A stretch of DNA of 30,928 bases, taken from a virus. Below the pieces are notes generated by a model, which had not been told where the DNA came from, did not search any database, and was given only the letters and a program-made list of their open reading frames with translations. The stretch lies in the IMG/VR virus record IMGVR_UViG_3300021964_007506, positions 1 to 30,928 of that record, one strand, 5' to 3'. Numbering within the stretch: the first letter of the stretch is position 1; the number at the start of each line of letters is the position of its first letter. Positions 1 to 15,617 of the stretch are shown piece after piece. A program made the translations under genes and the position numbers.

Positions 1-965
1 GCTACTGTTGGCCCTACGCAAGAAGCGACCGCAAAGATCATCGACCTACAGACTTATGCCTCAAAACAATAGATAGTATAAAGGAGCAAGCCCGTGGAAA
101 TGGCTTTAATAGTTTTCATTTTTCTCTTAGCGGTGGTGAGCCTACCTTTCACCCTGGTTACCTGGACATACTCAACCATCTCGCTAATGATGTTAGGAAT
201 ACTAATTACACTAGTGTTCACATGACATCAAACTGTAGTCGCAATATGAGATGGTTTAAAGAATATGTAGAAAAAGTTAAACCGTTTCATAGAGCAAGTA
301 TTACAGCAAGTTTACATACAGAACACTTAAACACAAAGGAGAAGATGCAGGATTTTGCAGATAAACTTATCCTGTGTCAAGAACATGATGTACAAGTTAC
401 AATTAATATGGTCATGGTGCCAGCCTGGTTTGAGCGTGATTGGGAGAATGCACTCTTCTTTCACGAACAAGGTATTAACGTTACTCTTAAACCACAATCA
501 GACCCTACTGCTTCTAAAATTGTTGAAGGATACAAACCGGAAGATTTAAAACGTTTATATAACGGAATGCCACAACGTGCCTACACTGAAAGTAAACGTA
601 TATGGTCAGATCGCCCCAAAGCAAAGTTTAAGGTTCCAATAGGAATGGACAAACCTGATGCAAGTGTGCCTTGGCATATGCAAGTTGAAATGAAAGACTC
701 AAAAGGCAATAAGTACTATATGGACCAAGCAGAACGCTTTAATGCCTTTAATTTCAACAATTTTGAAGGATGGGCTTGCAATGCCGGTTACAGCGGACTT
801 ATAATACGTGAGCCAGACGGTTCGATAAAAAGAAGTTATTCTTGTCATGATGCACCACTTGGCAACATCGAAACAGGCTTTACTTTGTTTAAGACACCTA
901 AGACATGTATTACAAAAAGTTGTGTTAGTAGTGCAGATAGTAAAATACCAAAAAGGAAAAATTAA
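1..965 (+). CDS. Radical SAM enzyme, 5'-truncated by window edge
   Basis: The reading frame is open from base 3 to the stop at 963-965 (320 codons visible), so the gene begins outside the window. An ATG at 222 is internal, because conserved radical SAM features lie before it. The first visible residues, YCWPY, carry what is probably the last Cys of the CxxxCxxC cluster motif, and SGGEPTFHPGY is the GGEP motif that contacts the SAM amino group. The C-terminal part has more cysteines (WACNAGY, YSCHD, TCITKSCV) that could bind an auxiliary Fe-S cluster, as in SPASM-type enzymes. Radical SAM enzymes cleave SAM to a 5'-deoxyadenosyl radical; the substrate here is unknown. The stop is followed at once by the nitroreductase-like gene (ATG at 965), so the two are probably co-translated. 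The family call is firm, the specific reaction is not. Confidence 0.85.
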   Translation, partial: YCWPYARSDRKDHRPTDLCLKTIDSIKEQARGNGFNSFHFSLSGGEPTFHPGYLDILNHLANDVRNTNYTSVHMTSNCSRNMRWFKEYVEKVKPFHRASITASLHTEHLNTKEKMQDFADKLILCQEHDVQVTINMVMVPAWFERDWENALFFHEQGINVTLKPQSDPTASKIVEGYKPEDLKRLYNGMPQRAYTESKRIWSDRPKAKFKVPIGMDKPDASVPWHMQVEMKDSKGNKYYMDQAERFNAFNFNNFEGWACNAGYSGLIIREPDGSIKRSYSCHDAPLGNIETGFTLFKTPKTCITKSCVSSADSKIPKRKN

Positions 966-1681
966 TGGAATGGTTAGAATTAATTGAACAAAGACACACA
1001 ACATTTGCCTGGGACAAAAGCAATATCCCTAGCAAAGAACTTATTGTAGAAACACTCGAAGAAGTATATACACATATTCCTAGTAAGAATTTACAGTTTC
1101 CTTATCAGGTAAGGTTATTTAAAAATGACGATCTTAATATACGAAAAGAAATAATGACAATTTGTCATAGAAACAAAGAAAAAAGTGCTGAAGAGGACTG
1201 GGGAAATCCGCAAGTACTTGCTCCTTGGTTGTTGGGATTTAACTCTAGATGGTGTTCAGATTTAGAAGTAAGGCACGAAACTACCTCTAAACGAGGTAAA
1301 TTAGATGGACTAGGAAAACATAAAAAAAGAACTAATGATACTGATGGAGGTCAAACACAAACAGAAAATATTGAAATAGGTATATTCAGTGCATACGTTA
1401 TGTTAGCATTAGCTAACAAAGGTATACAAACAGGAATGTGCCAAAACATTTGTAACAATTATGTAAGAGCAGAAGAAATTTTCAAAATACACGAAGATGA
1501 AAGAGCAATAGATTTTAGATTTATTATGGGTATTGGATATGCTAAAGATAGAAACTTAAGGCATGATTACTTCGATCCACGGATTAACAAAAACAAACCA
1601 ATTCCGTATGCTCCTATTGATGTACACAAGGTTTATCCTAGACCAGATATGAATGATATAGTCAAAATAATAAAGGAATAA
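965..1681 (+). CDS. Nitroreductase-like flavoprotein
   Basis: This 238-aa protein has the outline of the FMN-dependent nitroreductase fold. The N-terminus (LIEQRHTTFAWDKSNIPSKE) corresponds to the usual 'I..RRS.R.F....i..e' segment, followed by a PSKNLQFPYQVRLF segment like the family's 'PS..N.QPw.f.v'. A middle helix (IGIFSAYVMLALANKGIQTG) matches the helix that normally precedes the Gly-rich turn, and FRFIMGIGYAKD resembles the terminal 'iiGyp' strand. Members use NAD(P)H and FMN to reduce nitro groups, quinones or C=C bonds, and some act on peptide azolines. It overlaps the radical SAM gene by one base and sits in a cluster of redox enzymes, so it may act on the same substrate. The call rests on motif resemblance only. 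Confidence 0.6.
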   Translation: MEWLELIEQRHTTFAWDKSNIPSKELIVETLEEVYTHIPSKNLQFPYQVRLFKNDDLNIRKEIMTICHRNKEKSAEEDWGNPQVLAPWLLGFNSRWCSDLEVRHETTSKRGKLDGLGKHKKRTNDTDGGQTQTENIEIGIFSAYVMLALANKGIQTGMCQNICNNYVRAEEIFKIHEDERAIDFRFIMGIGYAKDRNLRHDYFDPRINKNKPIPYAPIDVHKVYPRPDMNDIVKIIKE

Positions 1682-1683
1682 TA

Positions 1684-1857
1684 ATGGCTATGAAATTAAT
1701 TTGTAAACACCTAGGCCCCTATTATGAAATACAAAAAAGGTTTCCTTGTAAAGCATTTGCAAATGAATTTATAGGAGAGCTTTGGATAGAAATAGATGAA
1801 AAATACGGTACTTTAATATATATGATGTTTGGAGATAGTGTTGTTAGACGTGATTGA
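1684..1857 (+). CDS. Small hypothetical protein (57 aa)
   Basis: A 57-aa frame starts at ATG 1684, two bases after the nitroreductase-like stop, and ends at TGA 1855-1857. The sequence begins MAMKLICKHL and is rich in aromatic residues and Met (ELWIEIDEKYG, LIYMMFGD). The upstream AAGGAAT at about 1675-1681 can act as a ribosome binding site. It has no signal peptide or clear membrane helix. It fills the only gap in the + strand cluster, which supports its being translated, but the family is not recognised. Confidence 0.5.
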   Translation: MAMKLICKHLGPYYEIQKRFPCKAFANEFIGELWIEIDEKYGTLIYMMFGDSVVRRD

Positions 1858-1877
1858 TATACTACAGGATACTACAT

Positions 1878-2432
1878 ATGAATAATTCGATACACCATAT
1901 AAATTTTGATATTGACAAAGGTATGCTAATTAAAGAAAGTAGCTATTGTCAGTTTGTACCAATTAATAGTGTTACACTGAGACATATACAGAGAGGTGGA
2001 AAAAGGTTTTCTGATTATTTAAAAAAAGAAGATAAAAATTGGTGGAGGCGACAAGATTCTTGGCAAGCAAGTACAAATGCTGATAATGAACTATTAGCTA
2101 AGATGCCAGAAACCGCCAGAATACTTTCTATATTTAAAGAGAGATTAAAAACAAACGAGATAGAAGCAAATTTCCTTACACAAAAAGTTGGCACAAATGT
2201 AAAAATGCATGCCGATGTTGGTACAGCGTGTGCTATAAATTTTTTACTAAAAGGAGATGAAACTCCGATAATGTTTGAAGAAGACGGTACATTTTATTAT
2301 AAGAATGCATTGTTAAACGTAAGTAAAAAACATATGGTTCCAGAACAAAGATCAACAGATAGAATGCTTTTTAAACTAAGGATTTTAAATATGCCCTTTG
2401 AAGAAGTAAGAGAGAAGATATATGTCAATTGA
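1878..2432 (+). CDS. Small H-x-D...H...R protein, 2OG/Fe(II) oxygenase-like
   Basis: 184 aa from ATG 1878, chosen because AGGA at 1866-1869 is well spaced; an in-frame TTG at 1854 would add eight residues. H111-x-D113, H152 and R162 have the spacing of a double-stranded beta-helix (cupin-type) Fe(II)/2-oxoglutarate site: HxD and distal His for iron, Arg for the 2OG carboxylate. The core between them (INFLLKGDETPIMFEEDG) looks like alternating beta strands. The N-terminal 100 residues are not recognised. Two more small proteins in this cluster (3005-3562, 4451-4936) carry the same signature. Hydroxylation of a peptide or small molecule is the most likely chemistry, but this is inference from metal-site spacing. 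Confidence 0.5.
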   Translation: MNNSIHHINFDIDKGMLIKESSYCQFVPINSVTLRHIQRGGKRFSDYLKKEDKNWWRRQDSWQASTNADNELLAKMPETARILSIFKERLKTNEIEANFLTQKVGTNVKMHADVGTACAINFLLKGDETPIMFEEDGTFYYKNALLNVSKKHMVPEQRSTDRMLFKLRILNMPFEEVREKIYVN

Positions 2433-3015
2433 GGTAATAGATATAATCCAAGAAGTTGAATACCAAGATATGCTATTAGATGCATTGAAGGGTATTGAAT
2501 CAGATCCTCACCATAACACTAAGAATTATAAGAACTTTGCTGAACGTTTACCTTCCTATGATGCTTTCCATATAGTATTAAAAGATGGCATCTTAGTAGC
2601 TTGTAGCGGTCTATACAACGGAGGAATATATCCTAATAGCACAGTTAGAGCTTTAGATAGAACCTACTACTTTAATTGGCGATCTAGCCACGTTTATAAA
2701 AGGAAAAGTTCAAATTCAAGATATGCAAGTGAATTTATGTGGCCTAAACAAGTTGAACTTGCAAAAAAACTAGGTTATAAATGTGTATTTTGGAGTACAC
2801 AGACACCTGAAAACCGTAGAGTAATTAAATGGATAGTAGATTATACGACTAAATACAAACCTATTTTATTGCCTAAATTATATAATACTTGTAGATTAGT
2901 CAATAATTGTGTTAACCAGGATAAAACTTGTTGGCAAAATATTGCAATGTATGCTTTTACAACAGGCTTTGAATTCCCATTACCAAGTATAGAGGTTTCT
3001 GATTATGAAAAATGA
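2422..3015 (+). CDS. GNAT-like acyltransferase, putative
   Basis: 197 aa, overlapping the previous gene by 11 nt, with a purine-rich site (AGAGAGAAG) before ATG 2422. The middle of the protein (FHIVLKDGILVACSGLY, then VRALDRTYYF and a conserved-looking WPKQVELAKKLGYKCVFWST) resembles the beta-strand, acyl-CoA loop and helix order of GNAT N-acetyltransferases, with TQTPENRRVIKW as the usual late 'N......y.k.GF'-type segment. The canonical Q/RxxGxG/A loop is not clear, so the assignment is tentative. Its place between oxidoreductase-like genes suggests it modifies the same target, possibly by N-acylation. Confidence 0.4.
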   Translation: MSIEVIDIIQEVEYQDMLLDALKGIESDPHHNTKNYKNFAERLPSYDAFHIVLKDGILVACSGLYNGGIYPNSTVRALDRTYYFNWRSSHVYKRKSSNSRYASEFMWPKQVELAKKLGYKCVFWSTQTPENRRVIKWIVDYTTKYKPILLPKLYNTCRLVNNCVNQDKTCWQNIAMYAFTTGFEFPLPSIEVSDYEK

Positions 3016-3562
3016 TATAAAAGCATTAAGGCAATACGCTAAATTAAAGAAACTGCCAGGAGTTATAAAACTCGGCACGATTAGTAACGAGCTATGTGAT
3101 CAACTTTGTAACTTGAGCAAACATTCAGAAATTACAAATGTAAAGGCTATAGCAAACAGAAAAGGAACATATGGAGTAGAACACGACGATACCAGCCCTG
3201 CTGGGAAAACATATAATCAAAAACATATAGACAATTGGACAATAGATATCGAGTGTTTAAATGATTTCGAAGGAAAATATGAATGGCGCTTTGCAGAATT
3301 AGAGCCACAAGGTATTATTCCAATGCATTTAGATGATCCTTATTCGTATAGATTTTTAGCAGTAGTAAATGGTAATCATACTTTTAATCTAGAAAGTCCT
3401 ACTGATCAAAAAATTATTATGAATACTGGAGATGTATATTTTGTAAATTCTGCACACAAACATAGTGTAGAAAATACTGCTAAAGACTTAAAAAGAATTG
3501 CACTATTAGGAAAGATGGAAATAAATGAACACAATACTAAATTATTACGAACAAGAGCCTGA
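3005..3562 (+). CDS. Aspartyl/asparaginyl hydroxylase-like protein
   Basis: 185 aa, overlapping its upstream neighbour by 11 nt. Residues H108-x-D110 (IIPMHLDDPYSYRF), H153 (SAHKHSVEN) and R164 (LKRIALL) fit the iron- and 2OG-binding triad plus Arg of a beta-helix dioxygenase. The segment WRFAELEPQGIIPMHLDDP and the later TGDVYFVNSAHKHSVEN resemble the aspartyl/asparaginyl beta-hydroxylase group, in which the distal His follows an 'N....H.v.N' strand. Expected role: oxidation of a peptide or small molecule. It ends inside the next radical SAM gene (38-nt overlap), so expression is tightly coupled. The substrate is unknown. Confidence 0.55.
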   Translation: MKNDIKALRQYAKLKKLPGVIKLGTISNELCDQLCNLSKHSEITNVKAIANRKGTYGVEHDDTSPAGKTYNQKHIDNWTIDIECLNDFEGKYEWRFAELEPQGIIPMHLDDPYSYRFLAVVNGNHTFNLESPTDQKIIMNTGDVYFVNSAHKHSVENTAKDLKRIALLGKMEINEHNTKLLRTRA

Positions 3563-4451
3563 AAATAATACATTTTCGGATGTTGTTATCGATGTTACTC
3601 ACAGATGTAACATGAATTGCAAAAACTGTTACATACCTAATAGAGATGTGCCTGACATGGATATGGAATTAATGCTAGAAGCAATTAGTAAGTTTCCTAA
3701 ACGCACAATGATACGTATAATAGGAGCAGAGCCTACTATGCGTAGTGATCTCGGCGAGATGATATCGCGTATTAAAAAAACAGGAAACCGTTGTACATTG
3801 CTTACAAACGGTCTAAGACTAGCAAGAGAAAGTTATGTACAACATCTAAAACATAGCGGCCTTAGACATTGCTATGTTAGTATGAATGGTGCTGATAACG
3901 ATGACTACTATGAACAAATAGACGAATTAAGATGTGCAAGAAAAAAAGTTGCGGCTTTACAGAACTTAGTTAATAATAAGTTTATTATCGATACTGGTAC
4001 TATTATTGTTAAAGGAATAAACGACGATGTTGTAGAGCGTATGTTATCTTTGTATAAACGCACCGGAGTTGAAAATGTTGTATGTAGAATTAAAAATGTT
4101 GGAGATTTAGGTCGCAGTATGGCAGATCAAGATAATTATACCTTAGAAGAACTTGTTACACTAGTATCGCAACAAACAGGCCTAAGTGAAGATTACATTT
4201 ATCATTGGCGTAACACACCGATATATCAAAATGACCAACCTGAAATAGATAGTTTTATGTTTCCAATGAATCCCGAAAGTAAAAATAAGTTTATGCACAA
4301 AAGTGGTGTATGGTTTAAGATTGCTAATTGGAAAGGCGAACCTGGTCAAAGTGTTCCGTTGCGTAATAATACACGTAGAGGAAGACTAACTCCGGACTTT
4401 AAAGTTGCACCGTTCTTTGAACATGTTAAATTAAATGAAGGAGGGTATTAG
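3525..4451 (+). CDS. Radical SAM domain enzyme
   Basis: 308 aa. C28-x3-C32-x2-C35 (THRCNMNCKNCYIPNR) is the canonical [4Fe-4S]/SAM motif and GAEPTMRSDL is the GGEP-equivalent. The following VSMNGAD and IVKGIND segments match later strands of the partial TIM barrel. It is shorter than SPASM-type maturases and has no visible C-terminal cysteine cluster, unlike the other radical SAM protein of this cluster. It overlaps the hydroxylase-like gene by 38 nt and ends one base into the next gene. The family is certain; the substrate is unknown. The neighbourhood suggests modification of a peptide, sugar or cofactor. Confidence 0.9.
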   Translation: MNTILNYYEQEPENNTFSDVVIDVTHRCNMNCKNCYIPNRDVPDMDMELMLEAISKFPKRTMIRIIGAEPTMRSDLGEMISRIKKTGNRCTLLTNGLRLARESYVQHLKHSGLRHCYVSMNGADNDDYYEQIDELRCARKKVAALQNLVNNKFIIDTGTIIVKGINDDVVERMLSLYKRTGVENVVCRIKNVGDLGRSMADQDNYTLEELVTLVSQQTGLSEDYIYHWRNTPIYQNDQPEIDSFMFPMNPESKNKFMHKSGVWFKIANWKGEPGQSVPLRNNTRRGRLTPDFKVAPFFEHVKLNEGGY

Positions 4452-4936
4452 TGTATATCTTAGAATTACCTAATTTTAATTTTCCAAAAAGAGAATTGTT
4501 TGAGTATCAAAATAATCACCGAGGCTATAAAGAAAATATTCATTTTAAAAAAGGTCATAACTTAGATACTGCAAAAACTTGTAAATTTTTTGATTTAACT
4601 AATATTGATAATCCTGTTGTAAAACAAGTATTGGATACTGCTGGAGCAGTTGACGGAAAATTTACTAAGGTGCTCGCTGGTGGTGTAATGCCTGCTCATA
4701 TAGATCCTCAAAGAACTGCTGTCCTTATGTTACCTTTGACAGACAACCCTAGTCCTATTGTATTTTATGAGGATGACAAGGAAATTTTTAAACATGTATA
4801 TACTATGCCCACAATAATTAACGCAAAAATTAAACATGGTGTACCTGAAGTAAAAACAGATAGAATTTTTTTACAAATAAATTTCTTTGAACCTTGGGAA
4901 AATGTTTTAAAATTAATGAGTATTTTTCAAAAGTAA
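4451..4936 (+). CDS. Small H-x-D...H...R oxygenase-like protein
   Basis: 161 aa starting at GTG 4451, supported by a strong GAAGGAGGG site at 4437-4445; the GTG shares its G with the upstream stop codon. H83-x-D85 (MPAHIDPQRTAVLMLPL), H129 (KIKHGVPE) and R138 (DRIFLQINF) form the same iron/2OG-type signature as in the two other small proteins of the cluster. The C-terminus (FFEPW) is typical of the last strand of short phage 2OG-like proteins. It is the last gene of the + strand cluster and converges on the tail-fibre-type gene with only two bases between stops. Function is inferred from motif spacing. Confidence 0.5.
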   Translation: MYILELPNFNFPKRELFEYQNNHRGYKENIHFKKGHNLDTAKTCKFFDLTNIDNPVVKQVLDTAGAVDGKFTKVLAGGVMPAHIDPQRTAVLMLPLTDNPSPIVFYEDDKEIFKHVYTMPTIINAKIKHGVPEVKTDRIFLQINFFEPWENVLKLMSIFQK

Positions 4937-6100: not shown

Positions 6101-6421
6101 TTACTTTCTTCTTTTCATAAAATGTCTTGTTCGGCCTTGAATATCTGCCTTTACCCGTGCTGTATCAAGCCTAAAATCCACGTTATCTATACTGTCCTGA
6201 TAATTACTAAACAATTCTTCTAATGATTTTTCTATATCTTTAGCATCTTTTTTTTGTCTAGTTTTAGCAACATCTATATCCCAGACTTTACCGTCTGTAA
6301 AAAATACACGAACGCTGTGTAGATATTTAACAGGTACAACTTTAATATCTACATCTTGAAATACTTCAGGCCAATGATCTATAATGTCCTGAGGAAGTTT
6401 TTTGTTTTTTGCCTTAGGCAC
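6101..6421 (-). CDS. Conserved marine T4-like phage protein (106 aa)
   Basis: The frame opens further upstream, but that part lies inside the preceding gene. GTG 6421 gives a protein beginning M-PKAKNKKLPQDIIDHW, a natural N-terminus with only an 8-nt overlap; TTG 6430 is the alternative. Visible features are a hydrophobic core (VKYLHSVRVFFTDGKVWDIDV), an acidic helix (DIEKSLEELFSNYQ) and a basic tail (RTRHFMKRRK). I recall similar proteins near structural genes of marine T4-like phages; their role is unknown. Position before the fibre gene suggests a virion or assembly function. Confidence 0.6.
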   Translation of the reverse strand: MPKAKNKKLPQDIIDHWPEVFQDVDIKVVPVKYLHSVRVFFTDGKVWDIDVAKTRQKKDAKDIEKSLEELFSNYQDSIDNVDFRLDTARVKADIQGRTRHFMKRRK

Positions 6422-7019
6422 TTTCTGCAACAGACTTTTTCTTCTTAGTCGGAACAAGTTCTTCAGCTTGCTCACGTAGTCTCTTTGCTTCTTTAAACAT
6501 TGTATCTGCTTGCGAACGATATTGTGCTGCTAAAGTTGCATCATCAATAACTGCTTCATTTGTTGGAGCTGTATCTTCTGCTACAGGCATGTCACTAACA
6601 GTTGCCATATCTTTTACTTCAGTAGACTGACCTGCATCTAGTGTTGCTAAATCTTCAACTGCTACACCTTTTTGTTCAGCAATCATTCTATTTAATTCAT
6701 CTAATTGAATTACTGTGCTACGATCTGGAGTCATTTCTACTAGCTCAGTTGCAACTTTTTGCATTTTGCCTGTTACATGAAATCCAGCTAACATAATTCT
6801 ACCATCTGGCAGTCTAGTTCTAGCCATTGCATTTGCAAAAACATCTTCGTTTTGGCCAGCGTCGCTTTCGATAAGTTTCATCAAAGAATCGTGTTCTTCT
6901 GCCATTAGGTTTTCTGTAGTAACTACTACACAATTTTCAGGCTCACCGGGAACAGTTCTGTATGCTACAATAACTTTCCTTTGGTTAGTCTTAATACGTC
7001 CTACATGTTTATACATCAT
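6414..7019 (-). CDS. Probable virion-associated protein (201 aa)
   Basis: The N-terminal two thirds (KHVGRIKTNQRKVIVAYRT ... EEHDSLMKLIESDAGQNEDV ... ARTRLPDGRIMLAGFHVTG) form a compact domain resembling a family I associate with marine T4-like phage structural regions. It is followed by a Thr/Asp/Ala-rich linker (about residues 130-165) and a charged helix (SQADTMFKEAKRLREQAEEL) ending in a Lys cluster. It overlaps the 82-aa gene by four bases, so the two are translationally coupled. No enzymatic motif is visible. A structural or assembly role is inferred from context. Confidence 0.6.
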   Translation of the reverse strand: MMYKHVGRIKTNQRKVIVAYRTVPGEPENCVVVTTENLMAEEHDSLMKLIESDAGQNEDVFANAMARTRLPDGRIMLAGFHVTGKMQKVATELVEMTPDRSTVIQLDELNRMIAEQKGVAVEDLATLDAGQSTEVKDMATVSDMPVAEDTAPTNEAVIDDATLAAQYRSQADTMFKEAKRLREQAEELVPTKKKKSVAESA

Positions 7020-7264
7020 TTTTCTCCTTCAGTAGCACTATTTGTTGCTTGTTGCTGTTGTGCCACTGCTGCTAGGAATGTTTCTAGCTTTGTGTAAGTT
7101 GTACCAACTGTAGTCATTTCATTGGGCTTAAAAGCACCACGTTGACTTGCTACGTCGATAATTTGTTTGATATTACCCAAATCTTGAACTGTAAGTTCGA
7201 CTGGGGCTTCATTAGCCGGAGCAGGTTGCGCGGTAGCTTCAGCTGGTTTCTTTTCTTCTGTCAT
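7016..7264 (-). CDS. Conserved small phage protein (82 aa)
   Basis: It has a low-complexity N-terminus rich in Ala, Pro and Glu, then a conserved-looking core (ELTVQDLGNIKQIIDVASQ, RGAFKPNEMTTVGTTYTKL, ETFLAAVAQ) predicted to be helical. AAGGAG lies well spaced before the ATG at 7264. Similar small proteins are, as far as I recall, common in cyanophages next to structural genes. The function is unknown; the flexible acidic N-terminus and helical core would suit a binding adaptor. Confidence 0.6.
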   Translation of the reverse strand: MTEEKKPAEATAQPAPANEAPVELTVQDLGNIKQIIDVASQRGAFKPNEMTTVGTTYTKLETFLAAVAQQQQATNSATEGEK

Positions 7265-7304
7265 AGTTAGTTAACTCCTTATACTATTAATTATTCGAAA
7301 ATAT

Positions 7305-7604
7305 TTACTTGTATTTCAAAAGTGGACACGCCAAAGTGAAATATGATAGTTCTTTTGGTTCTTCAAAACCTACTTTTAACACAGTTGTAAACGTATTATC
7401 ACCTTGTTTATCAATACCAAGAGACTTTCCAACATAATATCTTCCTTTTAGATTTTCTGCAATCCATTTCGAAATACTATCTTGAAGATTGTAGGTCAAA
7501 GGAAGTTTTATATATTCAAAATGAATTGGTGCAACATTAGATTGTCTACACTTGAAAACTTCAAGTCTATTAGGTTGATTTGTTTTAAGCAGCGTTTTTG
7601 TCAT
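7305..7604 (-). CDS. Hypothetical phage protein (99 aa)
   Basis: ATG 7604 is preferred to an earlier in-frame start at 7622 because it reduces the overlap with the VWA gene to 20 nt. The sequence MTKTLLKTNQPNRLEVFKCR is followed by a beta-rich core (VAPIHFEYIKLPL, LKGRYYVGKSL) and a C-terminus (VGFEEPKELSYFTLACPLLKYK) that looks well conserved in its spacing of aromatic residues. No catalytic motif or membrane segment is visible. It is downstream of the MoxR/VWA pair but probably in the same transcript. Confidence 0.55.
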   Translation of the reverse strand: MTKTLLKTNQPNRLEVFKCRQSNVAPIHFEYIKLPLTYNLQDSISKWIAENLKGRYYVGKSLGIDKQGDNTFTTVLKVGFEEPKELSYFTLACPLLKYK

Positions 7605-8859
7605 AATGTACAGTAGTGCCAAATGGCGCCTGTAAGTCCTTATTTTGATTAGAATGAATTACAAATACTGTATCGCAGTAGTCTTCATCTCCCCAACTAC
7701 CCCAAGGATAGCCATCAGTAAACATAATGAACTTTTTAGGTACAAAATCTGTATCCTTCATGTAATTCCAATTACAATCGAATTCTGTACCTCCACCTCC
7801 AAAGATTTCGTAATCTGTAAGGTCTTCACCATTTTCTGCACTAAAGTCTTGTTCGTTATATACCTTAGTGTCAAAGCACCATAACTTTATATTATAGTCT
7901 TTATATTCTTCCATGATACCTTTTACTTCACTTAAAAAGTCTTTTGCTTGGTCATTTCCAATAGATCCACTCATGTCAATTGCAACAGCAACATCAATTG
8001 TAGTATCAAAATTCATTCCGGGTAGTACTGCACCGGTGTGCCAACCTTTACGTGAAGGGCGGCTAAATGTATAATCGTTTCTAATTGTGGATTGTATCTG
8101 CTGACGTAATATTTCACGCCAATTCATTTTAGGTTCAGTAAGATCTTTAATCATACGTGCAATCTCACCTGGAATATTCCCAGCGCCTGCAGCTTGTGCA
8201 GCACTCATCATACTTTCTTTAATTTCTTCTTTGATCTTACGCATTTCTTCTTTAGAATATTTAGGTGGTCCTTTTTTACCTTTGCCTGGATTGTCTGCAG
8301 GATTACCTTCACCGTCCCAATCAACATGTTCGTCTAGCATTTCGCCTAGTTGTTTTACAAACTCTTCACCATTCTTTTCTGCTTCTTTGAACAGTTCATC
8401 GTATACTTCTTCAGAAGTCCAACCATCATATTTAAAATCTTGATAACATTGTACTAGCTTAGGATTATCACCAATACGGTCACGTACTAACAAATTATTT
8501 ACAATATAATCTGCAGCAATATTATATAAAACCGGATTACGATCTCCTCTACGTGTTAAGTGATCAAATACGCAATGTAAAATTTCATGTGCAATAACAA
8601 ACTCAATTTCTTTATTAGTCATTGCGTTAAAAAACTGTGTGTTAAAATACAAATGACGTCCGTCTGTTGCGGCTGTAGGACACCAGTCGTCACATGCTTC
8701 TATCTTAAGACGTGTTGCCATATTACCGAAAAACGGATGTCTAAGGAGCAAACCTACTCTAGCAACAATAACATTGTCTAACACCTTTTTACGCATTTCT
8801 GTTAGTTCTGCAGGTGTAATATCTGGATTGGGTACAAACCCTTTAGTATCTATTGTCAT
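7585..8859 (-). CDS. VWA-like domain protein with zinc metallopeptidase motif
   Basis: 424 aa. HEILH at residues 91-95 (FVIAHEILHCVFDH) is a zinc-protease motif in the N-terminal domain. A charged, low-complexity linker follows (about 180-225). The C-terminal VWA-like domain has the MIDAS motif D295-x-S-x-S (AIDMSGSIG) and the later FTDGYPWG segment. This is the domain order of the family often paired with MoxR ATPases. The pair is thought to act as a chaperone or metal-insertion machine in which the VWA partner binds substrate. AAAGGAG precedes the ATG and a TTGACT-N17-TATAAT promoter lies just upstream, separating it from moxR. Confidence 0.85.
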   Translation of the reverse strand: MTIDTKGFVPNPDITPAELTEMRKKVLDNVIVARVGLLLRHPFFGNMATRLKIEACDDWCPTAATDGRHLYFNTQFFNAMTNKEIEFVIAHEILHCVFDHLTRRGDRNPVLYNIAADYIVNNLLVRDRIGDNPKLVQCYQDFKYDGWTSEEVYDELFKEAEKNGEEFVKQLGEMLDEHVDWDGEGNPADNPGKGKKGPPKYSKEEMRKIKEEIKESMMSAAQAAGAGNIPGEIARMIKDLTEPKMNWREILRQQIQSTIRNDYTFSRPSRKGWHTGAVLPGMNFDTTIDVAVAIDMSGSIGNDQAKDFLSEVKGIMEEYKDYNIKLWCFDTKVYNEQDFSAENGEDLTDYEIFGGGGTEFDCNWNYMKDTDFVPKKFIMFTDGYPWGSWGDEDYCDTVFVIHSNQNKDLQAPFGTTVHYDKNAA

Positions 8860-8882
8860 GCCATTGCTCCTTTATTTTACTT

Positions 8883-8911
8883 ATTATAGCGTAATTACTA
8901 TAAGAAGTCAA
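8883..8911 (-). promoter_or_regulatory. Sigma70-type promoter for the VWA gene
   Basis: The - strand shows TTGACT (8911-8906), a 17-nt spacer and TATAAT (8888-8883). It lies between moxR and the VWA gene, with the start codon about 24 nt after the -10 box, so the VWA gene can be transcribed apart from moxR. Confidence 0.8.
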
Positions 8912-8917
8912 GATAAA

Positions 8918-8952
8918 TTGGACGGTTTGTTTAGGAGACCGTCCAAACTCCT
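8918..8952 (-). other. Candidate H-type RNA pseudoknot after moxR
   Basis: In the - strand transcript, AGGAG (8952-8948) can pair with CUCCU (8937-8933), while UUGGACGGU (8946-8938) pairs with ACCGUCCAA (8926-8918). Stem 1 is 5 bp, stem 2 is 9 bp, loop 1 is one nucleotide, there is no spacer between stems, and loop 3 is AAACAA. This is the classic H-type geometry with an A-rich loop. The 9-bp hairpin alone is certain; the tertiary pairing is inferred. It begins five bases after the moxR stop and has only a poor U-tract, so it could be a weak terminator, an RNA-stabilising end or a binding site. Confidence 0.6.
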
Positions 8953-8956
8953 TGTA

Positions 8957-10045
8957 TTATGCCTCTTGTGCTTTGGTAATATACTTACCAAAACGTTCAT
9001 GAAACTCATCGAAACATTCAACTTCATCTGGATCAATTGGTAGAGCATACTGAGTGAGGGCTAACTTGATACCCATAACAACCAATTCAGTTTCGAAATT
9101 GTCCATCATAAAACGTAAGAAGTTATTAACTTTATCGTCAAACTTCTTATCGCCTTTGTCGGACGATTCTTTAAGTTCATAACAGAGCGAGACCGTCAAG
9201 GAATACATGGCACTGATTTCTTTGGTCTTAAGCTCTTTAACCTTTCCTGATAAAATATCAGTTGGGTTAGGCATTGAAGCTGCAACCTTTCGGTGTGCAA
9301 CAAACTTGATGCCTAGGCCTTCGCCTACTGCACCTGATACAAGATCAGTTGTAGTTTCTTCATCAAGTTCATCTTCTAACAATTCACTTACAAAAGACCA
9401 ACTACGTGGTGTTGCAAATGAACGGCTTGGAGATTTAGGATCAAAATCATAAAGGTCTTTTTTGCTAAAAGTCAAATAACCTACAACATCATTGTGTACA
9501 TTATTATTTACTGCCCAAGTAAACCAATCGTCGAAGTCGACAGCAAGTTCAATGTGGACAAATCTATTAGCAAGCGGAGCAGGCATTCTGTATGTAACAC
9601 CTTTGTCTGCTTCGCGGTTACCAGCGGCAACAATCAAAACGTTGTCTGGTAATACGTATTGACCAACCTTACGATTAAGAATTAGTTGGTATGCGGCTGC
9701 CTGTACTGCTGGAGCCGCAGAATTCATTTCATCCAAAAACAGTACTATGAAATCATATTTCTTAGCCATTTCTGCTGTGGGTAGTTCTTGTGGTGGTGCC
9801 CATGCCATAACATTGTCATTTGCGGCATAGTATGGGATACCTTTAATATCTGTAGGTTCCCATAATGACAAACGGATGTCAATTAATTTGGATTTAGGTA
9901 GTTCATTAGTTACTTGTCCAACAATATCAGACTTACCAATACCTGGAGGTCCCCACATAAAAATTGGACGTTTTTTCTTAAAAGCATGCCTAATACTTTT
10001 CTTTGCTCTATTAGGGCTTACGGTGCGTACTGCGACGTTTTCCAT
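8957..10045 (-). CDS. MoxR-family AAA+ ATPase
   Basis: 362 aa from ATG 10045, chosen for the strong GAGGAA six bases upstream; an in-frame ATG at 10078 would add 11 residues. Walker A is GPPGIGKS (32-39) and Walker B is LFLDEMNS (102-109), followed by a sensor-type segment (VLIVAAGNREADKG) and an Arg-containing MPAPLANRFVHIEL stretch. MoxR ATPases are hexameric chaperone-like motors that work with VWA-domain partners. The next gene encodes exactly such a partner. It has its own TTGACT-N17-TATAGT promoter. Similar pairs occur in marine T4-like phages; the client protein is unknown. Confidence 0.85.
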   Translation of the reverse strand: MENVAVRTVSPNRAKKSIRHAFKKKRPIFMWGPPGIGKSDIVGQVTNELPKSKLIDIRLSLWEPTDIKGIPYYAANDNVMAWAPPQELPTAEMAKKYDFIVLFLDEMNSAAPAVQAAAYQLILNRKVGQYVLPDNVLIVAAGNREADKGVTYRMPAPLANRFVHIELAVDFDDWFTWAVNNNVHNDVVGYLTFSKKDLYDFDPKSPSRSFATPRSWSFVSELLEDELDEETTTDLVSGAVGEGLGIKFVAHRKVAASMPNPTDILSGKVKELKTKEISAMYSLTVSLCYELKESSDKGDKKFDDKVNNFLRFMMDNFETELVVMGIKLALTQYALPIDPDEVECFDEFHERFGKYITKAQEA

Positions 10046-10101
10046 TTTGTATTCCTCTTCTTGTGTTAACAGTGCCATATCTAATTTCTTAGTATGTATA
10101 T

Positions 10102-13922: not shown

Positions 13923-14041
13923 CCTGCCTTTCTAATCCTATCTTGATCAATAGGTGCCTTCATTGCTTTATCTAACTGTTCGTTAGTTTCTTTTTTTATA
14001 TCGTATAGTGCATCCATATCTCTACTATGTTCCCCAGGCAT
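13916..14041 (-). CDS. Small charged protein (41 aa)
   Basis: The open frame extends far upstream, but that part is the shadow of queE. The plausible gene starts at ATG 14041, overlapping the queE end by 17 nt; ATG 14017 is an alternative. It encodes a helical, charged peptide (MDALYDIKKETNEQLDKAMK ...) ending RIRKAGW. Neighbours on both sides overlap it, so it is likely translated. Unknown function. Confidence 0.45.
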   Translation of the reverse strand: MPGEHSRDMDALYDIKKETNEQLDKAMKAPIDQDRIRKAGW

Positions 14042-14918
14042 TTCCGAATAGGCTGATATGGAGTCTGGGGGTAAATCGCCATCCTTCTGCCATACATGCT
14101 TCGGCCACATCTTTAACGTTGAGAACGTATTCTTCACTGCGTCCACCCAACGGCATAAGATATACTGGACATTCCACCCCGGCACTTCTGTAAGCGTCCA
14201 CAGCCTTTTTAACTTCATCAAAGTCACTTTGAGTAGCGACAACAAACTTAAAATACATGTCGCTATCAGTAACAGTATTATACTCACTAGCCACATCAGG
14301 CTTAATAGCAGTATCCCAAGGTTCTCCGCTAACGCTAAGTTTTGGGGAACAAGACCAAGTGACTTGGATTCTGTCCTGATCGTTGAGATAGTTAAAAAGA
14401 TCTTCGTGTAAATGTTGTGTAGTATTTGTTTCAAAAGTAATATTCCTCAAGTCTTTCATACGTGGATGTTCGAATAACTCTACGTACAGTCGTTGCCACG
14501 CCAACAACGGTTCGCCACCTGTCATAATCAAATGAACGTCTTGACCATTATCTTGTACCCATTTACCATTAGGTGTAAGAGATAGTAAATGTTCAACTAC
14601 TTCGTCAACAGTTGCCTGCTTATTAAACTTTTTAAACTCAGGATAGATACTTGCATATGTATCGCAACCTGTATGTATAATAGGCAAGTCGTTAAACTCT
14701 TTTGTAGTTTCATGTACGCCAGCGTCAAGTAATGCCTGTACTTCAGCATTATGAATAATACCTTGCTTTTGTTTTTCGTCACGCATGGGTTCATTTTGTA
14801 AACCAAAGTTCATACAACGAAAGTTACAACCGAAGGTACGTAGAAATACACTAGGTACTCCTACAAACTTGCCTTCACCTTGTACACTATAAAATGCTTC
14901 TGAATATCTTAGTTTCAT
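14025..14918 (-). CDS. queE: QueE-like 7-carboxy-7-deazaguanine synthase
   Basis: 297 aa. The radical SAM enzyme QueE converts carboxytetrahydropterin into 7-carboxy-7-deazaguanine (CDG). The opening YSEAFYSVQGEGKFVGVPSV and LRTFGCNFRC are typical of QueE, as are MTGGEPLL (GGEP-type motif) and FETNTTQ. The cluster motif is unusual: C31-x3-C35 is followed by MNF instead of MNC, and the third cysteine seems to be C85 in HTGCDTYAS, which matches the normal 'WCDTxYS' after an insertion of about 46 residues. This form also occurs, to my knowledge, in cyanophage QueE. It lies nine bases after folE and shares its promoter. Confidence 0.85.
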   Translation of the reverse strand: MKLRYSEAFYSVQGEGKFVGVPSVFLRTFGCNFRCMNFGLQNEPMRDEKQKQGIIHNAEVQALLDAGVHETTKEFNDLPIIHTGCDTYASIYPEFKKFNKQATVDEVVEHLLSLTPNGKWVQDNGQDVHLIMTGGEPLLAWQRLYVELFEHPRMKDLRNITFETNTTQHLHEDLFNYLNDQDRIQVTWSCSPKLSVSGEPWDTAIKPDVASEYNTVTDSDMYFKFVVATQSDFDEVKKAVDAYRSAGVECPVYLMPLGGRSEEYVLNVKDVAEACMAEGWRFTPRLHISLFGNAWGT

Positions 14919-14927
14919 ATTTATATC

Positions 14928-15617
14928 CTATCTATCACAAGCATATGACTGTTGCAACTTAATATTGTCCATGAACTCTTTCTTAGTAGCTGCATCGTCT
15001 TTGAATGCACCTTTGAGTACAGTTGTTTGTGTAAGACTACTATGTGCCTTTACACCTCTGTTTTCAACACAACCGTGTGTTGCTTGTACATACACACCTA
15101 AGTGTTCTGCACCTGTTGCTTTTTGTATTTCACGAGTGATATCATTTGCAAGTTCTTCTTGTAATGTACCACGTTCAGCACACCATTGTGCAATACGTGT
15201 ATACTTAGATAATCCAATTAGTTTGTCTGCGGCAATGATGCCAATGTATGCTACGCCTCTTACAATCTGATGGTGATGTGAACACATACTTGTTAGTTCT
15301 GAACGCACTACTAACATACCTTCATAACGTGAAGCACTGTCATTTGGAAATGCTGTCGCACTTGGAATTGGATCATAACGTCCTGCCATCAGTTCGTTGA
15401 TATACATCTTTGCAAGACGTTTACCAGTTCCCATACTGTTAGGATCATTATGCCTATCAATTAGAAGTTTGTCTAATACATTTTCAAAAGCACTTGCAGC
15501 TTCTTCAATCAGTTCTTCTTTGTCGCCATCTTCTAAGACGCCTGAAATGTTATCGCCTGCCCAATAACGAATGTTCGCTTCCTCTAAGCGGGCTTTTATC
15601 TGTTCACTTTTACTCAT
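14928..15617 (-). CDS. folE: GTP cyclohydrolase I (FolE)
   Basis: 229 aa, the normal length. Zinc ligands C112 and H115 (SMCSHHHQIV) and C183 (THGCVENRGV) are present, together with LSKYTRIAQWCAERGTLQEE and the C-terminal SSLTQTTVLKGAF. It turns GTP into dihydroneopterin triphosphate, the first step of both folate and 7-deazaguanine synthesis. With queE directly downstream and queD and dpdA nearby, the deazaguanine role is more likely than folate supply. GGAG precedes the ATG, and a perfect sigma70 promoter with a leader of about 55 nt drives it. Confidence 0.93.
   Translation of the reverse strand: MSKSEQIKARLEEANIRYWAGDNISGVLEDGDKEELIEEAASAFENVLDKLLIDRHNDPNSMGTGKRLAKMYINELMAGRYDPIPSATAFPNDSASRYEGMLVVRSELTSMCSHHHQIVRGVAYIGIIAADKLIGLSKYTRIAQWCAERGTLQEELANDITREIQKATGAEHLGVYVQATHGCVENRGVKAHSSLTQTTVLKGAFKDDAATKKEFMDNIKLQQSYACDR

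Follow-up and report, generated by a model that had tools for sequence, protein, structure and literature searches.

The stretch of DNA studied here (the window) is IMG/VR virus record IMGVR_UViG_3300021964_007506, a linear fragment of 30,928 bases from an ocean virus. Its positions 3–4936 are filled by eight open reading frames (ORFs; P0001 to P0008) on the + strand, which touch or overlap apart from two small gaps and converge on a - strand tail fibre gene (P0009, 4939..6051), whose stop codon lies 2 bp from that of P0008. Overlaps of 1, 11, 11, 38, and 1 bases occur at the junctions 965/965, 2432/2422, 3015/3005, 3562/3525, and 4451/4451, respectively, and gaps of 2 and 20 bases at 1681/1684 and 1857/1878; a TTG start at 1854 would turn the latter gap into an overlap. 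These coordinates and junctions confirm the eight closely packed + strand genes at 1–4936 reported in a preliminary description of the sequence, which had listed two radical S-adenosylmethionine (rSAM) enzymes, a nitroreductase-like flavoprotein, three small H-x-D...H...R proteins, a GNAT-like protein, and one small unknown protein. As an inventory this make-up stood, but not as a complete set: P0001 is truncated at the contig start and the cluster is therefore incomplete, and in related contigs further rSAM and oxygenase genes follow beyond this end.

The cluster is the fibre-proximal tip of a larger, modular island of tailoring enzymes that occupies a fixed slot beside the fibre gene. The carrier is an uncultured T4-like jumbo phage, and the island is dominated by rSAM enzymes and 2-oxoglutarate (2OG)-Fe(II) oxygenases. 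P0009 has an Mtd_N N-terminal domain (PF18454, E 2.2e-13), and the slot is marked by a syntenic flank of - strand genes of the families c64, c65, and c66 (6414..8859 in the window). In related viral contigs, c66, c65, c64, and, in the clearest cases, an Mtd_N-type fibre are followed by islands of ~20–45 kb on the opposite strand. The three flank families lie beside the island in contigs G002, G004, G008, G010, L185, L203, and L204 (c64 and c66 in G011), and the fibre is found at the same slot in G008, G010, G011, G012, L185, L203, and L204 (for G012, only the fibre was seen). Genes encoding rSAM enzymes account for 111 of the 331 genes called in nine related islands by a simple script, some of whose calls in high-GC contigs were poor, and single contigs contain up to 18 PF04055 matches. 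The other island genes encode TauD, AspH, B12-type rSAM, pyridoxal phosphate-enzyme-like, and desaturase proteins, as well as carbamoyltransferase, UDP-sugar dehydrogenase, epimerase, AMP-binding enzyme, class IV aminotransferase, flavin mononucleotide (FMN) reductase, and FkbM methyltransferase. Two unassigned island proteins gave almost no matches in the PDB.

Both rSAM assignments were borne out by Pfam (PF04055, cut-off 29.5 bits). P0001 (3..965, +; 33.9 bits) has C-terminal cysteines and is cut by the contig start. Homologues extend ~50 residues further at the N-terminus, where they have CNYRCSYC; of the corresponding cluster cysteines of P0001, the contig retains only the third, the first two falling beyond its start. 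P0001 is the most conserved enzyme of the islands, with one ortholog per contig where present, and its homologues are 67–91% identical to the reference homologue. The enzyme occurred once per contig in 12 of the 29 contigs tested, all 12 of which also had a P0002-type gene. At least 517 relatives were found in uncultured viral contigs (the best 80 at 74–95% identity), and a search of the 50,697 cultured-phage records in INPHARED returned no match or at best 26% identity. P0007 (3525..4451, +; 63.9 bits) has a MoaA/Tes-like core without a C-terminal cysteine cluster. Its CxxxCxxC motif is CNMNCKNC, with invariant cysteines, and its best PDB profile matches were Tes (7tol, E 4.5e-22) and MoaA (2fb2, E 9.6e-16). 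P0007-type loci numbered 71 in viral contigs and 13 in genome collections. The named NCBIfam families viperin, MoaA, PqqE, TrsS, and Tes were rejected for the window proteins, with scores far under the cut-offs.

The facial triad and the distal arginine of 2OG-Fe(II) oxygenases are conserved in P0004, P0006, and P0008, in agreement with the three H-x-D...H...R proteins noted earlier. P0006 (3005..3562, +), of the AspH/cupin type, reaches the Pfam cut-off for Cupin_2 only (29.5 bits, cut-off 27.2), and AspH scored 14.8 bits. Residues H108, D110, H153, and R164 are invariant in P0006, and its best PDB profile matches were a proline oxidase (1e5r, E 1.2e-4) and a beta-hydroxylase (7v4f, E 0.007). 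P0004 (1878..2432, +) and P0008 (4451..4936, +) are putatively oxygenase-like, judging by the conserved HxD...N....H...R pattern. In P0004, H111, D113, N147, H152, and R162 are conserved in 12 sequences, and the profile match to the P0006 family is weak (hhalign E 0.002, probability 14%). The small, AspH-like, fibre-proximal P0008 conserves H83, D85, N124, H129, and R138 and comes closer to the P0006 family (hhalign E 4.7e-5, probability 68%). Homologues of P0008 adjoin the same fibre in L203 and L204, and the relatives of P0004 in L205–L210 adjoin a desaturase gene.

The GNAT and flavoprotein assignments were upheld by AlphaFold2 models, which were built from shallow alignments. P0005 (2422..3015, +) has no Pfam match, and its model (pLDDT 84.5) resembled GNATs (5jtf and others; Foldseek probability 1.0), a fold from which an acyltransferase role is predicted. 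Likewise, the model of P0002 (965..1681, +; pLDDT 83) matched FMN nitroreductases in the PDB (3pxv and others; Foldseek probability 1.0), and a profile match to 2b67 was obtained (E 1.3e-4). P0002 shows 35–71% identity across 16 viral loci and gave no Pfam match (its L010 homologue scored 16.9 bits against a PF00881 cut-off of 23.5), and we regard it as nitroreductase-like only. No P0002 relative was found at E 1e-15 in 385 alphaproteobacterial genomes, in a search that had no positive control and so shows little. The small unknown gene, P0003 (1684..1857, +; 57 aa), is real and not a spurious ORF, since a homologue at L185:5847-6014, directly after the P0001 homologue, is 84% identical over 55 aa; among the related loci compared, only L185 had one.

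Parts of the cluster recur in other viral contigs. In L185, an independent contig of 32.7 kb, homologues of P0001, P0002, P0003, P0005, and P0007 occupy the same slot in a different order. One strand carries rSAM, oxygenase, rSAM, oxygenase, P0001-type, P0003-type, and P0005-type genes, and the other carries P0007-type, desaturase, and P0002-type genes, with the same fibre at the end of the array. The neighbourhood search that had been proposed for the eight genes recovered five of them in this slot, and all eight together in no other contig. Since IMG/VR contigs are redundant, P0007 counts were made on clusters at 85–90% identity; at 85% identity, the family formed 32 clusters in viral contigs, and the neighbour counts are raw, without a matched-gene null. 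A 2OG-type oxygenase gene lies within four genes of the P0007-type rSAM gene in 30 of these 32 clusters, a P0006-type gene is immediately upstream in 12, and a P0005-type GNAT gene lies within four genes in 12. A desaturase gene was nearby in seven clusters, and fibre or fibre-assembly families in several. The idea that P0006 always adjoins P0007 was dropped after the broader scan (12/32 clusters).

Phages of distinct groups have fibre or fibre-assembly genes near the P0006–P0007 pair or the P0005–P0006–P0007 trio. In L083 and similar T4-like contigs, the pair adjoins a tail-fibre assembly gene (phrog_3304), near genes for head closure, tail-sheath stabiliser, and terminase. The core of the island is a GNAT–oxygenase–rSAM set, and the eight genes as a whole are modular: P0001 and P0002 belong to the large jumbo-phage islands, and P0006–P0007, with or without P0005, occurs in T4-like contigs that have neither P0001 nor P0002. 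Strand and gene order vary between contigs, and the P0002-type gene is far from the P0001-type gene in G004 and G015. The joint system suggested in the preliminary description is partly supported, by repeated co-occurrence of the genes beside fibre genes (as in L185) and by the oxygenase near the P0007-type rSAM in 30 of 32 clusters; one fixed pathway of eight genes is not supported, as the genes are modular and reshuffled.

In bacteria, P0007-type rSAM genes are rare and patchy: the Labrenzia order had them in 1 of 297 genomes, the Bdellovibrionota group in 7 of 369, the Acidobacteria group in 1 of 396, and another alphaproteobacterial order in 3 of 14. In Labrenzia and Roseibium, the locus consists of a GNAT gene, an AspH/cupin gene, the rSAM gene, one to three small genes, and a gene for an RTX protein of 2000–2400 aa; P0006- and P0007-type enzymes are adjacent and in the same order as in the window, likewise with a GNAT gene upstream. 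In the other alphaproteobacterial order, the rSAM gene (with a GNAT gene where called) adjoins a gene whose product begins like a signal peptide and contains a DLDGDG domain. This domain was identified as the FrpC self-processing module (PDB 6sjw, E 2.4e-24; also 6sjx). All six rSAM loci of five alphaproteobacterial genomes lie within ~4 kb of an FrpC-module gene, and the domain is present only 1–3 times per genome in those five. The enzyme classes, the gene order, and the linkage to fibre genes and to secreted FrpC-module or RTX genes are direct observations. Because part of the island stands beside giant secreted proteins in bacteria, surface-protein decoration is possible. Homology to P0005 was not detected for fam6 of the Bdellovibrionota loci.

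With confidence somewhat short of even, the reading that we prefer is that the enzymes modify a fibre or surface protein, ahead of tailoring of a glycan or small molecule, and we infer the target, the chemistry, and the benefit as follows. The core of P0005, P0006, and P0007, perhaps with P0004 and P0008, would modify amino acid residues in a surface protein that is exported: in phages the tail fibre, for which P0009 is a candidate, and in bacteria the secreted FrpC-module or RTX protein encoded nearby. The oxygenase would use Fe(II)/2OG to hydroxylate a side chain, the rSAM enzyme would abstract a hydrogen by the 5'-deoxyadenosyl radical and yield a C–C, C–X, or epimerised product, and the GNAT would add an acyl group. 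P0001 and P0002 may perform a separate rSAM/flavin redox step within the same island. The benefit might be altered receptor binding or stability of the fibre.

Several observations weigh against this proposal. No FrpC-type motif was found in the phage proteins scanned, and therefore the bacterial substrate does not transfer directly to the phage. Homology between the bacterial GNAT (fam2) and P0005 was not detected, and the neighbour in the Roseibium/Labrenzia operon is a secreted calcium-binding protein, not a fibre. In Bdellovibrionota, the rSAM gene accompanies AspH-like and desaturase genes with no surface protein as partner, and in Acidobacteria it accompanies a haem-oxygenase-like diiron enzyme, not a surface protein; a neighbour of the Acidobacteria rSAM is probably an acyltransferase, by inspection of its sequence. 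In addition, free-amino-acid hydroxylases are among the best PDB relatives of P0006. Genes for a tryptophan halogenase, an AMP-binding enzyme, a carbamoyltransferase, and a sugar dehydrogenase occur in the islands, and an acyl carrier protein gene occurs in one contig; this inventory would fit the tailoring of a small molecule or glycan. In any case, inserted genes tend to gather at fibre loci, which are hot spots for them. The same core may serve different substrates in different settings.

The main rival, for which there is a substantial though smaller chance, is synthesis or tailoring by the island of a small molecule, or of a glycan or lipid of the surface (a host O-chain, an acylated amino acid, or a specialised metabolite). 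The window genes would then act as tailoring steps on this molecule, and the fibre would be a mere neighbour. This reading is favoured by the non-alphaproteobacterial neighbourhoods and by the wider inventory, which includes a tryptophan halogenase (E 1.4e-46; VirX1 6qgm, E 4.4e-36), AMP-binding, carbamoyltransferase, and UDP-sugar dehydrogenase genes together with epimerase, class IV aminotransferase, FMN reductase, and FkbM methyltransferase genes. Acyl carrier protein and TauD genes lie beside P0006–P0007 in L073, desaturase genes accompany the P0007-type rSAM both in 7 of the 32 viral clusters and in Bdellovibrionota, and the best PDB match of P0007 is the lipid enzyme Tes. Moreover, pelagimyophage host recognition clusters (HRCs) hold glycosyltransferases and rSAM cassettes (PMC7029224). 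Nevertheless, this explanation does not account for six of six alphaproteobacterial loci lying beside a rare FrpC-module protein. We recognised no complete sugar-nucleotide or peptide-synthetase pathway, and the part of the island in the window has no glycosyltransferase.

That eight independent accessory genes came to stand side by side by chance at an insertion hot spot appears improbable. The separation and reshuffling of the modules, the distance between P0002 and P0001 in G004 and G015, and the failure to find all eight genes in another contig would fit such an origin; it is opposed by the 2OG oxygenase within four genes of the P0007-type rSAM in 30 of 32 viral clusters, the similar associations in bacteria, the overlapping reading frames, and the presence in L185 of five of them at the same slot. 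A peptide system resembling those of ribosomally synthesised and post-translationally modified peptides (RiPPs), in which the rSAM enzyme, the oxygenase, and the GNAT mature a precursor, either P0003 or a different small protein of the island, is more improbable still. RiPP clusters can combine rSAM enzymes, hydroxylases, and GNATs, and the conserved P0003 (55–57 aa) closely follows the P0001/P0002 end in the window and P0001 in L185; a second small protein of 66 aa is 65–84% conserved in seven islands. Against this, the conservation of P0003 extends over its full length and shows no leader/core division, the other islands compared lack the gene, and no protease or precursor-recognition domain was recognised. 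A role of the cluster in DNA hypermodification was rejected, as the QueE-like and GTP cyclohydrolase genes of the window lie ~9 kb away on the other strand and are unlinked to it.

The closest described arrangement is the HRC of pelagimyophages, in which fibres, glycosyltransferases, and radical SAM 'cassettes' were mentioned in passing with no function given (PMC7029224); Tasman Sea viral contigs have also been reported to be enriched in radical SAM genes (PMC7150976). Like the HRC, the present island is a large hypervariable region beside the tail fibres of T4-like marine phages, and it too combines tail fibre genes and rSAM cassettes in one variable region. Unlike in the HRC, rSAM enzymes are here the main class (a third of the island genes), accompanied by 2OG oxygenases, a nitroreductase, and a halogenase, and one enzyme is conserved across hundreds of contigs. 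The account of the HRC gives neither function nor partner analysis (PMC7029224). The DNA polymerase of the window also differs, being nearest to those of alphaproteobacterial jumbo phages. The HRC sits between VrlC and the neck gene gp14; the window ends inside the island, and neck genes were seen near P0006–P0007 only in other contigs, such as L083. The cyanophage halogenase VirX1 (6qgm) is also a phage-borne tailoring enzyme, with a homologue in island G001 (E 4.4e-36), but it is a single enzyme of another class, and the window has none.

The open-access papers searched described neither islands so dense in rSAM genes, nor their signature enzyme, nor the GNAT–AspH–rSAM operon of bacteria. 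The earlier statement that no phage system of this make-up has been described is thus nearly right, apart from the passing mention of rSAM cassettes in the HRC (PMC7029224). It is rather unlikely, but conceivable, that a widespread, undescribed pathway of rSAM enzyme, 2OG oxygenase, and GNAT puts unusual residues on the tail fibres or other surface proteins of uncultured jumbo phages and has a common ancestry with bacterial RTX/FrpC-module operons. A region in which every third gene encodes an rSAM enzyme, and whose signature enzyme occurs in at least 517 contigs of uncultured viruses but in practically no cultured phage, represents a large blind spot of phage biology. If the islands modify fibres, the receptor-binding proteins of abundant ocean phages bear chemistry that is unpredictable from sequence alone; if instead their product is a molecule, complex biosynthetic clusters are part of the gene content of large phages. 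The rSAM–oxygenase–GNAT core of Labrenzia/Roseibium makes the question testable now without a phage.

The - strand of the window contains a T4-like DNA polymerase gene, whose nearest cultured relatives are those of the alphaproteobacterial jumbo phages Sinorhizobium phage Phosso (49%) and Agrobacterium phage Atu_ph07 (45%). No close cultured relative of the window was found by megablast and tblastn. In the cultured Vibrio phage K566 (L054, 144847-185776), one region combines a GT8 gene and a gene annotated as PagP with several radical SAM genes. This rSAM/GT8 group is distant from the window genes; among the cultured phages found to have several rSAM genes, K566 is the nearest, and it is a possible laboratory model.

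Further observations concern individual island genes. A flavin-dependent tryptophan halogenase gene at L034:1866-3233 (G001; E 1.4e-46 to solved tryptophan halogenases) adjoins GMP reductase and AMP-binding enzyme genes at the contig end. The small island protein of ~66 aa (MRELQTESARALSTMQ...; L042:9633-9830 and six other islands; 65–84% conserved) often adjoins a methyltransferase-like gene (MT14). Stand-alone cysteine-rich SPASM-like fragments (c22) were found at L002:5284-5553, L031:11713-12027, and G004:163281-163607; those in L031 and G004 directly adjoin a radical SAM gene, and they are perhaps split auxiliary-cluster domains. In the viral contig L073, the acyl carrier protein gene (PF00550, 10533-10772) adjoins TauD and desaturase genes beside P0006–P0007. 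A TctA subunit of a tripartite tricarboxylate transporter (E 5.6e-96) is encoded at L037:15449-16885 (G002), near a carbamoyltransferase gene.

Elsewhere in the window, at 14025-15617 (-), a QueE-like radical SAM gene (phrog_2076) adjoins a GTP cyclohydrolase gene (phrog_2197), a pair that likely belongs to the 7-deazaguanine pathway. At 7585-10078 (-), a gene whose product contains HEILH and a VWA-like DMSGS motif (phrog_1314) adjoins an AAA ATPase gene (phrog_1297). The label 'HNH endonuclease' of phrog_1314 is doubtful, and the two neighbours resemble a MoxR/VWA pair. A phrog_1314-type gene is kept at the slot in related islands having the same flank.

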